A stretch of DNA of 64,000 nt from Novipirellula aureliae (lineage in GTDB: Bacteria > Planctomycetota > Planctomycetia > Pirellulales > Pirellulaceae), in the NCBI RefSeq assembly GCF_007860185.1, contig NZ_SJPY01000002.1, positions 465,775 to 529,774 on the forward strand, given 5' to 3'. Each line of letters starts with the position of its first letter. Position 1 is the first letter of the stretch. The position numbers and the translations under genes are program-made. The notes beneath the pieces are model-generated. The model made no database searches. It was given only the letters and a program-made list of their open reading frames with translations, and was not told the origin of the DNA. This document shows, one piece after another, positions 6,261 through 42,998 of the stretch.

Positions 6261-6287
6261 GGAGGAGCGATTCAAGGGTTTCAATAC

Positions 6288-6310
6288 GAGTCTTGGAGAG
6301 ACTCGGCTAC
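6288..6310. repeat. Single copy of the dispersed GAGTCTC palindrome
   Basis: GAGTCTTGGAGAGACTC followed by GGCTAC. The same 23 bases, with one change, close the large repeat array at 24718-24740, and near-identical copies occur in inverted orientation at 41584-41650. The arms pair to form a 7-bp stem with a GGA-type loop. Confidence 0.7.
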
Positions 6311-20563: not shown

Positions 20564-20668
20564 TAGCCCGGATGATTCATGGGCTTGCAAATTGTTTTGC
20601 AAACGTCTACGCCTTCAAGCGTTTACGTTCATTGCTCGAAAAACAGTCTGCGTATTAGCCGTTTTGGC
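20564..20668. mobile_element. Second, rearranged copy of the 677-802 element
   Basis: TAGCCCGGATGATTCATGGG begins here and the sequence follows the copy at 679 with only a few differences as far as CAGTCTGC (20653). There the two copies part. This copy continues with ATTAGCCGTTTTGGCG (20654-20669), the reverse complement of the sequence in the same place in the first copy, so the right end is inverted, and it runs straight into the 122-bp units. Confidence 0.6.
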
Positions 20669-21034
20669 GTTAGCGGGCTGTCGATTTAATCGTTTAACGC
20701 TTAGCCGAAGGCGTCAGCTTTTCCATAAGCGGTCGCCTATGGCTTGGCGTTAAACGATAAGTCGAGTCAAACCGATTAAATCGACAGCCCGTTAGCGGCC
20801 TGCTGATTTAATCGTTTAACGCTTAGCCGAAGGCGTCAGCTTTTCCATAAGCGGTCGCCTACGGCTTGGCGTTAAACGATAAGTCGAGTCAAACCGATTA
20901 AATCGACAGCCCGTTAGCGGCCTGCTGATTTAATCGTTTAACGCTTAGCCGAAGGCGTCAGCTTTTCCATAAGCGGTCGCCTACGGCTTGTCGTTAAACA
21001 ATAAGTCGAGTCAAACCGATTAAATCGACAGCCC
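20669..21034. repeat. Three tandem 122-bp units, each a nested hairpin
   Basis: Units begin at 20669, 20791 and 20913 and are nearly identical. Each reads GATTTAATCG then GTTTAACGC on the left and ends GCGTTAAACGATAAG then CGATTAAATC on the right, so both the outer and inner blocks pair with their mirror images. Between them are GCCGAAGGCG and CGCCTAYGGC. The regular 122-bp period with very low divergence points to recent duplication. No coding capacity is visible. Confidence 0.85.
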
Positions 21035-24040: not shown

Positions 24041-24740
24041 GTAGCAGCGTATCGCCGAGACGCTAACTCGTAGCAGCGTATCGCCGAGACGCTAAACCGT
24101 AGCAGCGTATCTCCGAGACGCTAAACCGTAGCAGCGTATCGCCGAGACGCTAAACCGTAGCAGCGTCTCGCCGAGACGCTAAACCGTAGCAGCGTATCGC
24201 CGAGACGCTAAACCGTAGCAGCGTCTCGCCGAGACGCTAACTCGTAGCAGCGTATCGCCGAGACGCTAAACCGTAGCAGCGTATCGCCGAGACGCTAAAC
24301 CATAGCAGCGTCTCGCCGAGACGCTAAACCATAGCAGCGTATCGCCGAGACGCCAAACCGTAGCAGCGTCTCGCCGAGACGCTAAACCGTAGCAGCGTAT
24401 CGCCGAGACGCTAACTCGTAGCAGCGTATCGCCGAGACGCCAAACCGTAGCAGCGTCTCGCCGAGACGCTAAACCGTAGCAGCGTCTCGCCGAGACGCTA
24501 AACCGTAGCAGCGTATCGCCGAGACGCCAAACCGTAGCAGCGTAGCAGCGTATCTCCGAGACGCTAAACCGTAGCAGCGTATCGCCGAGACGCCAAACCG
24601 TAGCAGCGTATCTCCGAGACGCTAAACCGTAGCAGCGTATCGCCGAGACGCTAACTCGTAGCAGCGTATCGCCGAGACGCTAACTCGTAGCAGCGTATCG
24701 CCGAGACGCTGTTTTCCGAGTCTCGGAGAGACTCGGCTAC
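24041..24740. repeat. Array of 23 tandem 29-bp palindromic repeats
   Basis: Twenty-three units of GTAGCAGCGT(A/C)TCGCCGAGACGC followed by TAAACC, TAACTC or CAAACC fill 24041-24710. The core AGCGTCTC-GCC-GAGACGCT is a perfect 8-bp stem with a 3-base loop; the common variant, with A in place of C in the left arm, has one mismatch. A few units read CTCCG instead of CGCCG. One unit (24538-24545) has an 8-bp partial duplication of GTAGCAGC. The array ends in a related palindrome, GAGTCTCGGAGAGACTC with GGCTAC (24718-24740). It is not a CRISPR array: the units are contiguous and there are no unique spacers. Confidence 0.95.
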
Positions 24741-34002: not shown

Positions 34003-34361
34003 AGGCAGTCGCTGCGGAGAAGTAGCGTGGAGGTGTTTTAGGTGGCCTAGGCTTCCAGCCTGGGGGGGCGGTTCCCGGGCTTCCAGCCTGGGAGGCGGTT
34101 CCCGGGCTTCCCGCCTGGGGGGGCAGGTCCCGGGCCTGGTAAACCTAGGCGATGTTTTTGCGGCGATGCCGTTGTAAGGTTGTAAGCTTTTTGTAGGCGG
34201 ATTTGCAATCCGTTGAGAACACGTAGGCCAGGCTGGAAGCCTAGGCCACACTCGGCCCCCAAAATAAGTTTCGAACCCTTTGCTCGAAGCGGGCGTAGAC
34301 GTTGAAGAAATCGTTTTCTTCCTTGATTTATTCCACTTTTCGATAACGGAAGCGTTTGCTC
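34003..34361. other. Divergent intergenic region with palindrome and tandem repeats
   Basis: About 360 bases between folC and the ABC ATPase gene. It contains a 19-bp exact inverted pair, with three units of about 28 bp inside it (34050-34130). The remaining 110 bases before the ATPase start hold no feature I could assign. Confidence 0.5.
34042..34249. repeat. Perfect 19-bp inverted repeat enclosing three 28-bp tandem units
   Basis: GTGGCCTAGGCTTCCAGCC at 34042-34060 is the exact reverse complement of 34231-34249. Inside, from 34050, GCTTCCAGCCTGGG followed by G-rich and TTCCCGG segments repeats three times with small changes up to about 34130. The arms are 170 bases apart, which suggests an element boundary rather than a simple mRNA hairpin. 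Confidence 0.75.
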
Positions 34362-39537: not shown

Positions 39538-41583
39538 ATGAACCACTTGGCTGATTCATTAAGCCCCTACCTACTCCAGCATAAAAATAATCCTGTCGAG
39601 TGGTATCCCTGGGGCAACGCGGCTTTCGAGAAAGCTCGGGAAACCGACCGACCGATCTTTTTGTCGGTCGGCTACGCAGCTTGTCACTGGTGCCATGTGA
39701 TGGAGCACGAAAGCTTTGAGAACGAGTCGATCGCGAAGTATCTCAACGAGCATTTCATTTCGATAAAAGTCGATCGCGAAGAACGTCCCGATATCGATCA
39801 GATCTACATGAATGCGGTCCAACTGATGACGGGCCGTGGCGGGTGGCCGATGAGTGTCTTTTTAGATCACCAAATGCGACCGTTTTATGCTGGAACGTAC
39901 TGGCCACCGACTCAGCGAAGTGGGATGCCTGGCTTTGTCGATGTCATTAGTGCACTGGCGGAGGCGTGGAAGAATCGCCGCAGTGATGTCGAAGAGCATT
40001 CCGCAAAGATTACCGAATCGCTTCAAGTGTTAGCACTCGGGACCGAGATGGAACCAGAGTCGATTGCCGATGAAGCGGTGATCACCAACTCCACCTCTCG
40101 TCTGCTGCAAGTTCTCGATCGTCAAGATGGCGGATTCGGCGCAGCCCCGAAATTCCCACACGCAACCGACATCAATCTACTGCTCACGCGCGCCGTCACG
40201 ACGGGTGAGAAAGAACTTGCCGATGCCGCGGAATTGACGCTCGACAGAATGGCGGGCGGCGGAATCCGAGACCATATCGGGGGCGGCTTCGCGCGCTACA
40301 GCGTTGACAGCAAATGGCTGGTTCCTCACTTCGAAAAAATGCTCTATGACAATGCACTGCTGGCCGTTCAATACGTCAGAGCTTTCCAGGTAACCGGAAA
40401 CAGACGCCATGCCGATGTCGCCTGCGAGATTCTCGATTATCTCGACCGCGAAATGACGGATCCGGCTGGTGGGTTTCACTGTAGCGAAGACGCCGATAGC
40501 GAAGGGGTCGAAGGCAAGTACTATGTCTGGACGCCAGATGAGGTGAAGAAGATCCTCGGAGAGGAAGCAGGCGAACGGTTTTGTAAGGTCTACGACATTT
40601 CCGAAGAAGGAAATTTCGAAGGTAACAATATCGCCAACTTACCGCGCTCGTTCGAAAGCTATGCAGAAGAATTCGCGATGCCCGATCTGGATATTCAGTT
40701 GGCGAGAAATCGCGAGAAGCTTCGTATCGAGCGTGACAAACGAGTGCATCCGGGGCGAGACGACAAGATTCTGACGGCCTGGAACTCTCTGGCAATCTCC
40801 GCGTTCGCAGTCGCTGGCGGCGTTCTCGATCGGCCTGATTATATTGAAATTGCAACGCGGGCTACAAAGTTCACCTTCGATCAAATGGTCACGGACGACG
40901 GTAATTTGTTGCACGCATTTCGTCAAGGTAAATCGCACCTTGCCGCGTTTTTGGATGATTACGCATTCACAATCGAGGCGCTCGTGTCGCTCTTCGAAGC
41001 GAACGGGCAAGCTCGATACATCGATCGGGCGGTTCAGTTGGCCGATACAATGATCAAACGATTCAAAGACGAAGAGCTGGGCGGCTTTTTCTATACGTCC
41101 AACGATTCCGAAACGCTAATCACACGGACGAAGGATTGGCACGATGGTAGCCTGGTGAGCGGCAATGCCTCCGCAGTGATGGCACTGCTGAAATTGTCTC
41201 GACTGTGCAATCGAGAAGATTATCGAATTGCCGCAGAGCAGACGCTGAGACTAGCGAACGATATTTTGCAAACTCAATCGGCTGCCTGCGCGGCCCTGGT
41301 AGTGGCCCTCGATCGCTACCGAAACGATGCAGAGCAAATCGTGGTGGCCGTTCCTGACCAAGAAGCGATGAAAAACGTTCGAGCGGATCTTTTAAAGAAC
41401 TTCCATCCGCATGCGACACTCTCCTGGGTGATTGGCGATGCGTTTGATTCAGAACCAGTCGTGGCATTGAATGAGGATCGCAGCGTGATCGATGCGGCTC
41501 CGACGGTGTACCGCTGCAAGCATTTCACCTGCGACGCGCCTGTGACCGGCAAAGCGGCCATACAATGGCTCGGAGAGTTCTAA
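39538..41583 (+). CDS. Thioredoxin-domain protein of the DUF255/YyaL (SPATA20-like) family
   Basis: 681 residues, the usual length. Thioredoxin fold at 1-170 with the redox motif C49-H-W-C52 inside SVGYAACHWCHVMEHESF and a cis-proline-region DREERPDIDQIYM. The C-terminal two thirds form an alpha/alpha barrel like those of the N-acylglucosamine 2-epimerase family (GGIRDHIGGGFARYSVD, HPGRDDKILTAWN, ALIVALDRY). No activity is firmly established for the family; a role in thiol or sugar metabolism has been proposed. Single gene, flanked by repeats, without an evident operon partner. Starts at ATG 39538 with the family-typical NHLADSLSPYLLQHKNNPVEW. Confidence 0.92.
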   Translation: MNHLADSLSPYLLQHKNNPVEWYPWGNAAFEKARETDRPIFLSVGYAACHWCHVMEHESFENESIAKYLNEHFISIKVDREERPDIDQIYMNAVQLMTGRGGWPMSVFLDHQMRPFYAGTYWPPTQRSGMPGFVDVISALAEAWKNRRSDVEEHSAKITESLQVLALGTEMEPESIADEAVITNSTSRLLQVLDRQDGGFGAAPKFPHATDINLLLTRAVTTGEKELADAAELTLDRMAGGGIRDHIGGGFARYSVDSKWLVPHFEKMLYDNALLAVQYVRAFQVTGNRRHADVACEILDYLDREMTDPAGGFHCSEDADSEGVEGKYYVWTPDEVKKILGEEAGERFCKVYDISEEGNFEGNNIANLPRSFESYAEEFAMPDLDIQLARNREKLRIERDKRVHPGRDDKILTAWNSLAISAFAVAGGVLDRPDYIEIATRATKFTFDQMVTDDGNLLHAFRQGKSHLAAFLDDYAFTIEALVSLFEANGQARYIDRAVQLADTMIKRFKDEELGGFFYTSNDSETLITRTKDWHDGSLVSGNASAVMALLKLSRLCNREDYRIAAEQTLRLANDILQTQSAACAALVVALDRYRNDAEQIVVAVPDQEAMKNVRADLLKNFHPHATLSWVIGDAFDSEPVVALNEDRSVIDAAPTVYRCKHFTCDAPVTGKAAIQWLGEF

Positions 41584-41781
41584 GTAGGCGAGTCTCTCCG
41601 AGACTCGCACCCCTCAGCGTCTAAGTAGGCGAGTCTCTCCGAGACTCGCACCCCTCAGCGTCTTGTGCGGTTCAGCGTCTTGTGTGGTTCAGCGTCTTGT
41701 GTGATTCAGCGTCTTGTGCGGTTCAGCGTCTTGTGCGGTTCAGCGTCTTGTGCGGTTCAGCGTCTCGGAGAGACGCTGCTA
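41584..41781. repeat. Compound repeat: two 41-bp units, six 17-bp units and an inverted copy of the 29-bp array core
   Basis: Two copies of a 41-bp unit start at 41584 and 41625, each with the palindrome GCGAGTCTCTCCGAGACTCGC. Six 17-bp units of CAGCGTCTTGTG(C/T)GGTT follow (41656-41757, starts every 17 bases). The last CAGCGTCT continues into CGGAGAGACGCTGCTAC (41759-41781). That segment is the reverse complement of the 29-bp array unit at 24041, in its CTCCG form. The two tracts are therefore the same family in opposite orientations. Confidence 0.85.
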
Positions 41782-41942
41782 CTGCGCCTCGGTGAAACGG
41801 CTTGTTTTGCCGAGGTTTATTTTTGAACGTCAGATTGTCGATGTACCTAAAAACATTCTTTTTGCTCTGCGATCCCTGAATAACCTTCCTTGCTGTACTT
41901 GGGATTGATGAATCCACCCAGGGATTCTTCGGTGGAGCCACG
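41782..41942. other. Short gap before the RRM terminator
   Basis: About 160 bases with no gene or repeat that I can support. Part of the 455-base intergenic stretch between the DUF255 gene and the RRM gene, otherwise filled by the repeat tract and the terminator. Confidence 0.4.
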
Positions 41943-42038: not shown

Positions 42039-42443
42039 TTAGTAGCGATCACCACGACCGCCGCCGCCACCACCACCGTAGCCGCCGCGACCACCGCCGC
42101 CGCCACCACCGTAGCCGCCACGACCACCGCCACCGCCGCCGCCGTAGCCACCGCCACGTCCGCCACGACCACCGCCGCCGCCGCCACCACGATCTTCGCG
42201 GGGGCGGGCTTCGTTGACCGTCAAATTACGACCCTCGTGCTCGACTTCATTTAAACCAGTGATCGCGGCCTGTGCCTCCGCGTCGCTGCCCATCTCGACA
42301 AAGCCAAAGCCTTTGCTTCGACCACTATCACGATCCGAAATCACTTGCGCACTTTCAACCGTGCCAAACTGAGCAAATAGTTGCTCCAAATCCGAACTTG
42401 AAACGCTAAAGCTCAAGTTTCCACAATACAGTTTCCTGCCCAA
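42039..42443 (-). CDS. Glycine-rich RRM RNA-binding protein
   Basis: 134 residues from a TTG at 42443 (MGRKLYCGNLSF after fMet). One RRM fold: RNP2 LYCGNL at 5-10 and RNP1 KGFGFVEM at 44-51. The last 50 residues are RGG-type repeats (GGGGGGRGG, GGGGYGG). Such proteins bind RNA and act in cold adaptation or as chaperones. The start is decided by AGGAG (42451-42455) 7 nt upstream. The ATG inside that spacer is out of frame and gives only a 76-residue product at most. An earlier in-frame TTG (42461) lacks a ribosome site. It has its own terminator at 41943-41975. Confidence 0.92.
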   Translation of the reverse strand: MGRKLYCGNLSFSVSSSDLEQLFAQFGTVESAQVISDRDSGRSKGFGFVEMGSDAEAQAAITGLNEVEHEGRNLTVNEARPREDRGGGGGGGRGGRGGGYGGGGGGGRGGYGGGGGGGRGGYGGGGGGGRGDRY

Positions 42444-42998
42444 CGCATAACTCCTGTGCAAGGATGGACGACCCGCGTTCTTTCGTTGCGGGCAAAAATT
42501 GATGATGCCCCAGATGGATACTTACCAAATGGGGAGGGAGGGAAGCGGCGCGAGCCGGCCAGAAACCCCAGCGACGGATGCACAATCGACCAACCAAGCC
42601 CGTAAGTTAACCGAAAAAATGCTCGCTGAATAGGCACTCCCACAGAATTGCGGGGAAAGATTTCACCTGGAAAAGTGTTTTCTTGTTCACTGCGAGGATT
42701 CGTTCGGCCACGCTTAGCTCGACTTCAAACAGCAGAGGGACCAAGAGTGCACTTTCACCCACCAACTGAAGTTTATCACCCTCGGTACGAGGACGCACTC
42801 GCTACGATCCGCGACAACCAGGCTATCGCCCAAACGGCTCACCCTGTCGAAACAGCGGATTCAGGCGATAGGTGTGATCGTCCGGCTAACAAACGCGATA
42901 ACGAAGTCCGGTTCTTATCTCATCCCCCTAATCTTACAATCGATGAGAGCGGAATCGCCGCAGTGTCGCCGCCCGACAAAGCAAAGGAAACTCATTCA
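42444..42998. other. Divergent region upstream of the RRM and zinc-ribbon genes
   Basis: About 555 bases, probably with the RRM gene's leader and promoter. An open frame enters from 42648 (plus) and joins the zinc-ribbon gene, but its first 117 residues have no domain and I treat them as untranslated. No hairpin or cold-shock-type element is obvious. Confidence 0.4.
42451..42455 (-). promoter_or_regulatory. Ribosome-binding site choosing a TTG start for the RRM gene
   Basis: AGGAG on the minus strand, 7 nt before TTG 42443 but only 2 nt before an out-of-frame ATG. The spacing and the conserved GRKLY protein start favour the TTG. Confidence 0.6.

Follow-up and report, generated by a model that had tools for sequence, protein, structure and literature searches.

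A repeat tract flush with a stop codon

In the window, by which we mean the whole stretch of 64,000 nucleotides of Novipirellula aureliae that was analysed, a repeat tract occupies positions 41584-41782 and starts directly at the stop codon of a gene. Tagged palindromes (REPs) stand there around short direct repeats, and palindromes of the same pattern lie at two other window loci. The features are as follows.

39538-41583, plus strand: upstream gene of 681 amino acids, ending in TAA directly before the tract
41579-41663, plus strand: 41-bp direct repeat, 2.1 copies, 100% identical
41584-41607, plus strand: REP copy 1, tag GTAG, stem CGAGTCTC/GAGACTCG, loop TCC; its tag follows the TAA of the 681-aa gene without a gap
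41625-41648, plus strand: REP copy 2, identical to copy 1, a tandem duplicate of the left arm
41655-41765, plus strand: 17-bp array, 6.5 copies, 95% matches
41759-41782, minus strand: closing REP, GTAG-C-AGCGTCTC-TCC-GAGACGCT, in a heads-out (REPIN-type) pair with copy 1
41786-41816, plus strand: terminator-like hairpin with a T-rich tail, 3 bp past the tract; one found, where chance gives 1.0 in shuffles
24041-24710, plus strand: expanded left arm of 23 REP copies in 29-bp steps (one of 37), 3 bp behind a 378-aa gene
24717-24740, minus strand: closing REP of the 29-bp array, CGA type, in opposite orientation
6287-6310, minus strand: single REP copy, CGA type

The forward copies in the tract (GTAGGCGAGTCTCTCCGAGACTCG) occur once per 41-bp unit, and the reverse copy is GTAGCAGCGTCTCTCCGAGACGCT. 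The 41-bp unit takes in the final five bases of the upstream gene (TCTAA, with the stop codon). The 17-bp unit contains only AGCGTCT, which is one stem side of the closing REP, and lacks a complete palindrome. To judge from their make-up, the 41-bp unit and the 17-bp unit (a piece of the right-hand REP with spacer) look like in-situ duplications.

An earlier note on this DNA had located both the 41-bp and the 17-bp repeats correctly and had set the right edge of the tract at 41781, one base short of the actual edge at 41782. It had also described the tract as ending in the exact reverse complement of the unit of the 29-bp array; the tract does end in the reverse complement of GTAGCAGCGTCTCTCCGAGACGCT, but the nearest of the 23 array units is one base off and most are two bases off. 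Elsewhere in the genome, the exact 24-mer GTAGCAGCGTCTCTCCGAGACGCT has eight copies, in two of the 20 stretches that were fetched. The relationship that the note saw with the palindrome closing the array (near 24740) and with the single one near 6288 is borne out, as all share the same pattern.

In the predicted fold of the tract the two end REPs pair with each other, and folding of the whole tract as RNA gave a stability no greater than that of shuffles (z = -0.10). An Rfam search of the window returned no match at gathering scores. The 681-aa gene has an orthologue in the same genus (locus L130) that is 75% identical, ends comparably and is without the REP. An empty-site alignment was sought between the two gene ends and none was obtained, because the DNA downstream of the orthologue differs; locus L131 was left out of this comparison. 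Facing the tract from the minus strand (42039-42461) is the gene of an RNA-binding-type protein with a long glycine-rich tail.

A dispersed family of tagged palindromes

The window holds 28 palindromes of the family pattern when up to one mismatch is allowed, and 100 dinucleotide shuffles held none. Across the 7.27-Mb genome there are 421 exact matches to GTAGCNNNGTCTCNNNGAGAC (289 forward, 132 reverse), and the reversed-pattern control, GTAGCNNNGTCTCNNNGAGAC read backwards over the whole genome, has none. The earlier proposal of one dispersed family, which an absence of further copies outside the window was to refute, agrees with these counts; the GTAG tag, the REP/REPIN class and the position flush with stop codons had gone unrecognised in it. 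The family is carried by 16 of 149 genomes of the same taxonomic family, this genome included, the other 15 having 1 to 100 copies each. Two other genomes of the genus have no copy, and the family is therefore probably recent. A scan of genome_contigs for heads-out pairs, a set that may leave out records near the genome of the window, returned 16 stretches, all of them from planctomycete MAG records (titled Planctomycetaceae, Planctomycetota or Pirellulales).

The anatomy of the unit was read from 34 clusters with 207 copies (the window, the nine first-listed loci and 20 fetched stretches), a sample that is not random because it was taken from the first places listed (on contig 1 and in the first part of contig 2) together with the window. 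The unit is a 24-bp palindrome of the pattern GTAG-C-[NNN]GTCTC-TCC-GAGAC[nnn]. An exact, unpaired GTAG tag is present in 186 of the 207 copies, the search having allowed at most one tag mismatch. The position after the tag is usually C, followed by an 8-bp stem around a 3-nt loop, which is TCC in 136 copies, GCC in 47 and ACC in 16. The inner five pairs of the stem (GTCTC/GAGAC) are nearly invariant and the outer three are varying Watson-Crick pairs, the outermost being seen as CG, GC, AU and UA. Among the 58 outer copies (28 distinct), the stem is paired in 95.1% of cells; the covariation score is 0.387 vs 0.103 (sd 0.020) in shuffles, a value reached by none of 500, and the signal is abolished when the partner is slid by 1-3 columns. 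The compensatory changes in the stem therefore show that the palindrome is maintained in hairpin form around a constant core.

Copies of opposite orientation follow a heads-out rule. The tags are outermost in all 24 clusters that contain both orientations, and the other 10 of the 34 clusters have a single orientation. Genome-wide, 23 exact heads-out pairs are present with gaps of 8-38 nt, nine of them in a single contig 8 array that repeats every 71 bp; of the 16 pairs from planctomycete MAGs, 10 span exactly 55 bp. The heads-out layout of the pairs in this family is the REPIN layout.

Comparable elements have been described. Passages of Di Nocera et al. (2013; PMC3733652) report 24 families of GTAG REPs, place GTAG families in the PVC superphylum, Planctomycetes among them, and name Rhodopirellula baltica among the hosts of more than one family. 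The GTAG REPs of that account are heads-out heterodimers located less than 20 bp from gene 3' ends, with tags supplying TAG stops, and their clusters are singletons or dimers reiterated with flanking DNA; mobilisation is ascribed there to RAYT transposases. The family described here has in common with them, as far as those passages go, the unpaired terminal GTAG, the 8-bp stem, the 3-nt loop and the heads-out heterodimers, as well as the location less than 20 bp from 3' ends, the TAG stop provided by the tag and the tandem reiteration with flank. It also shows the traits of the GTAG REP superfamily at large, namely an unpaired tag (186 of 207 copies), a stem within 6-13 bp with compensatory change, and dispersed, mostly extragenic copies in high number near 3' ends. 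Unlike the published GTAG REPs covered by the same passages (PMC3733652), head-to-tail arrays dominate here (139 of 173 neighbour pairs). We file the palindromes, with a reservation as to the published R. baltica families, as a probably new family of GTAG REPs, a known kind of element. Literature searches for work on planctomycete REPs led to PMC3733652 and PMC6006769 and, with a wider scope, also to PMC6749651.

The layout also resembles that of REPINs, for which ordered tandem clusters are described in the portions drawn on from Bertels and Rainey (2011; PMC3116915). In both cases the basic unit is an inverted REP pair of about 55 bp, tandem clusters are ordered and singlets look like remnants, whereas in the present family one arm is usually multiplied and not the whole REPIN of those portions.

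Tandem growth and position behind genes

Among the 173 neighbour pairs, 139 stand head-to-tail, 29 heads-out and five tails-out. The tandem arrays mostly multiply one arm, and less often both arms or the whole pair. The steps from copy to copy are nearly constant within an array and differ among arrays (29, 34, 36, 37, 39, 40, 41, 53, 63, 66 bp and others), so that the 29-, 41- and 17-bp units are local products and not periods of the family. The features that stay constant across the family are the tagged palindrome of 24 bp and its heads-out pairing. Expansion in 29-, 41- or 17-bp units, as previously put forward, fits the two window loci but misleads as a property of the family, as steps elsewhere are mostly 28 to 84 bp.

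The arms could have grown by duplication of a unit in place or by repeated site-specific transposition of single REPs, each unit then starting exactly at GTAG. Some of the unit boundaries suit transposition: the stretches preceding the first and the second copy have, in 20 of 24 multi-copy arms, an exact suffix of no more than 0-3 bases in common, which places the apparent start of the unit near the tag, and A or C likewise precedes the tag in the inner spacers looked at. However, only tag-bearing copies were counted, which biases the apparent start of the unit. Moreover, the outer flank forms part of the unit at several loci. At 41584 the second unit opens with the final five bases of the gene (TCTAA), and host DNA was therefore duplicated together with the REP; outer flank is also found inside the unit at L027 (a 5-base suffix) and at L104 (a 66-bp unit with about 26 bp of outer flank). 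Outer flank in the units of other arms, sought as proof of in-situ duplication, gave no clear case. The mean flank identity within a locus is slightly above the between-locus control (2.79 vs 2.17 of 8 bases), and the spacers within an array hardly differ, which is what duplication would lead one to expect. Growth by transposition is accordingly held to be unlikely, and slipped-strand duplication would be the simplest reading of the tandem growth.

In the clusters examined, the family favours the 3' ends of genes. With gene positions approximated by a simple longest-ORF caller, 36 of the 58 outer tags face a gene 3' end, 21 face a 5' end and one faces neither; tags lie -4 to +14 bp from the stop in 26 of the 36 that face a 3' end vs 2 of the 21 that face a 5' end (Fisher p = 5e-6). 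In six cases the tag's own TAG serves as the stop codon, and in five the stop is made up of TA and the first G of the tag. The base before the tag in this genome is A in 45 cases, C in 12, T in one and G in none (n = 58). In the pairs from planctomycete MAGs it is C in 23, A in five, T in two and G in two (n = 32), thus A or C in 28 of 32, and adjacency to stop codons is much weaker in these MAG REPINs than in this genome.

Copies also occur inside two operons. A REP array lies between two genes that we take to be nqrA and nqrB (L106 4069-4395), and a REP pair with tagless hairpins lies between what we take to be rpoB and rpoC (L101 3987-4117), the four names having been assigned by reading the sequences. 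The corresponding junctions of the same genus have no REP in two of two cases read for rpoB-rpoC and in the one case read for nqrA-nqrB, the nqrA junction of G087 (L157) being left out of the latter comparison. The nqrA-nqrB spacer measures 447 bp here vs 39 bp in the same-genus genome. From these REP-free junctions, the pair was most likely gained in this lineage. The junctions with and without REPs provide natural cases for measuring the effect of REPs on operon expression.

Hairpins placed directly behind stop codons, as at 26 of the 36 tags facing a 3' end, might be intrinsic transcription terminators kept there by selection. This explanation is very improbable. A T-rich end (five or more T among the eight bases behind the stem) is seen in just 9 of 207 copies, another hairpin, of terminator-like form, lies beyond the tract at 41786, and terminators have no need of a fixed GTAG tag and loop. 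Copies also lie within rpoB-rpoC and nqrA-nqrB, where the second gene is expected to be read through from the first, and a strong terminator role is therefore unlikely.

Two further explanations can be set aside almost completely. The 29-bp array at 24041 recalls a CRISPR or other spacer-acquiring locus in its regular period and palindromic core, but its 5-bp spacers recur in a few versions with no unique spacers of normal length, and its unit belongs to the dispersed family of 421 copies. A duplication confined to the window would account for a unit common to three window loci, but not for 421 exact copies in the genome, nor for the presence of the pattern in 16 of the 149 family genomes, this one included.

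Proposed origin and the search for a mobiliser

The tract at 41584 is very probably a GTAG-tagged REP pair in the REPIN layout that came to lie immediately after a stop codon by insertion and grew on the spot thereafter. The family unit consists of GTAG, one further nucleotide, an 8-bp stem (outer three pairs variable, inner GTCTC/GAGAC fixed) and a 3-nt loop. Two such copies with slightly different stems and outward tags form a pair of about 55 bp, which according to the proposed mechanism was copied around the genome. Tandem duplication in place of one arm, less often of both or of the whole pair, probably produced the 29-, 41- and other-bp units later. The copying could have been carried out in trans by a Y1/HUH (IS200/RAYT-type) enzyme, by analogy with the tag and pair layout in other bacteria. 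The arrays may be transcribed as 3'-UTR hairpins affecting the decay of the mRNA or the translation of the preceding gene. In E. coli, REPs at most 15 nt from the stop codon can stall ribosomes, according to an earlier study cited in the relevant part of PMC12306157. Like the E. coli REP/BIME elements of that account, the present palindromes lie no more than 15 nt from a stop codon at the majority of the loci covered; they differ in that their sequence is unrelated.

The genome encodes 13 matches to Y1_Tnp (PF01797), and no copy of this REP was found in the 1.5-kb flanks of these 13 genes; beside L042 there is one chance-like match without a stem. The 15-20 kb stretches around the 13 matches contain a single imperfect copy, which lies several kb away from one of the genes. 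A linked RAYT-type transposase gene was sought in this genome and none was found; the family thus differs from the REPINs treated in the portions of PMC3116915 used here in having no RAYT gene flanked by its own REP in this genome. In eight REP-bearing relatives, 60 stretches with Y1 genes, covering part of the 65 matches listed, contain a copy at four distinct places; shuffles of all 73 loci give 1.8 hits. The nearest of the four, at L087, is about 200 bp or less from a RAYT-like gene, and no linked gene could be named from these stretches. When 41 Y1 proteins were placed in a tree, no lineage was common to all nine genomes; the tree is weak in its deep forks, and its row L071 is apparently in the wrong reading frame. 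A name search of the Y1 proteins gave only IS200 matches or matches to REP_Tyr_transpos below the cut-off, and a home-made Y1 profile, whose check was the recovery of its own 43 seed rows, detected no such gene at the REP-bearing loci. The mobiliser may work from another place, may be one of the Y1 proteins without linkage to the family, or may since have disappeared from the genome.

A more specific proposal is an orphan REP family whose amplification, by a single-strand DNA transposase encoded at an unlinked place, starts precisely at the GTAG boundary; outward pairs would have become long one-armed arrays behind stops, including those of the rpoBC and nqr operons. We hold this fuller scenario to be unlikely. 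If true, it would represent a REP system lacking a cis-encoded REPtron. What is known of REPs and REPINs is extended here by an unstudied family of several hundred copies in a planctomycete.

The genome also contains RAYT-like genes and repeats of other kinds. On contig 1, a RAYT-like gene (L039 1055-2560), closest to REP_Tyr_transpos and below its cut-off, is ringed by 15 GGCTTCYAGCC hairpins (4 forward, 11 reverse) unlike the GTAG REP, and is likely the REPtron of another family. On contig 8, four near-identical RAYT-like gene copies, one of them partial, are clustered in about 21 kb (L033, L034, L035 and L040), which suggests recent movement. A 122-bp repeat with three copies in the window (20668-21034) has matches of 87-97% elsewhere in the genome, including beside a RAYT-like copy (L034 2356-2472) and in L103, L044 and L047. 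On contig 3, a second GTAG REP, GTAGCACAGGCTTCCAGCCTGTG, is present in 15 copies at 47-bp steps (L044 14529-15209), and the repeats at 34050-34135 of the window have the core GGCTTCCAGCC in common with it.
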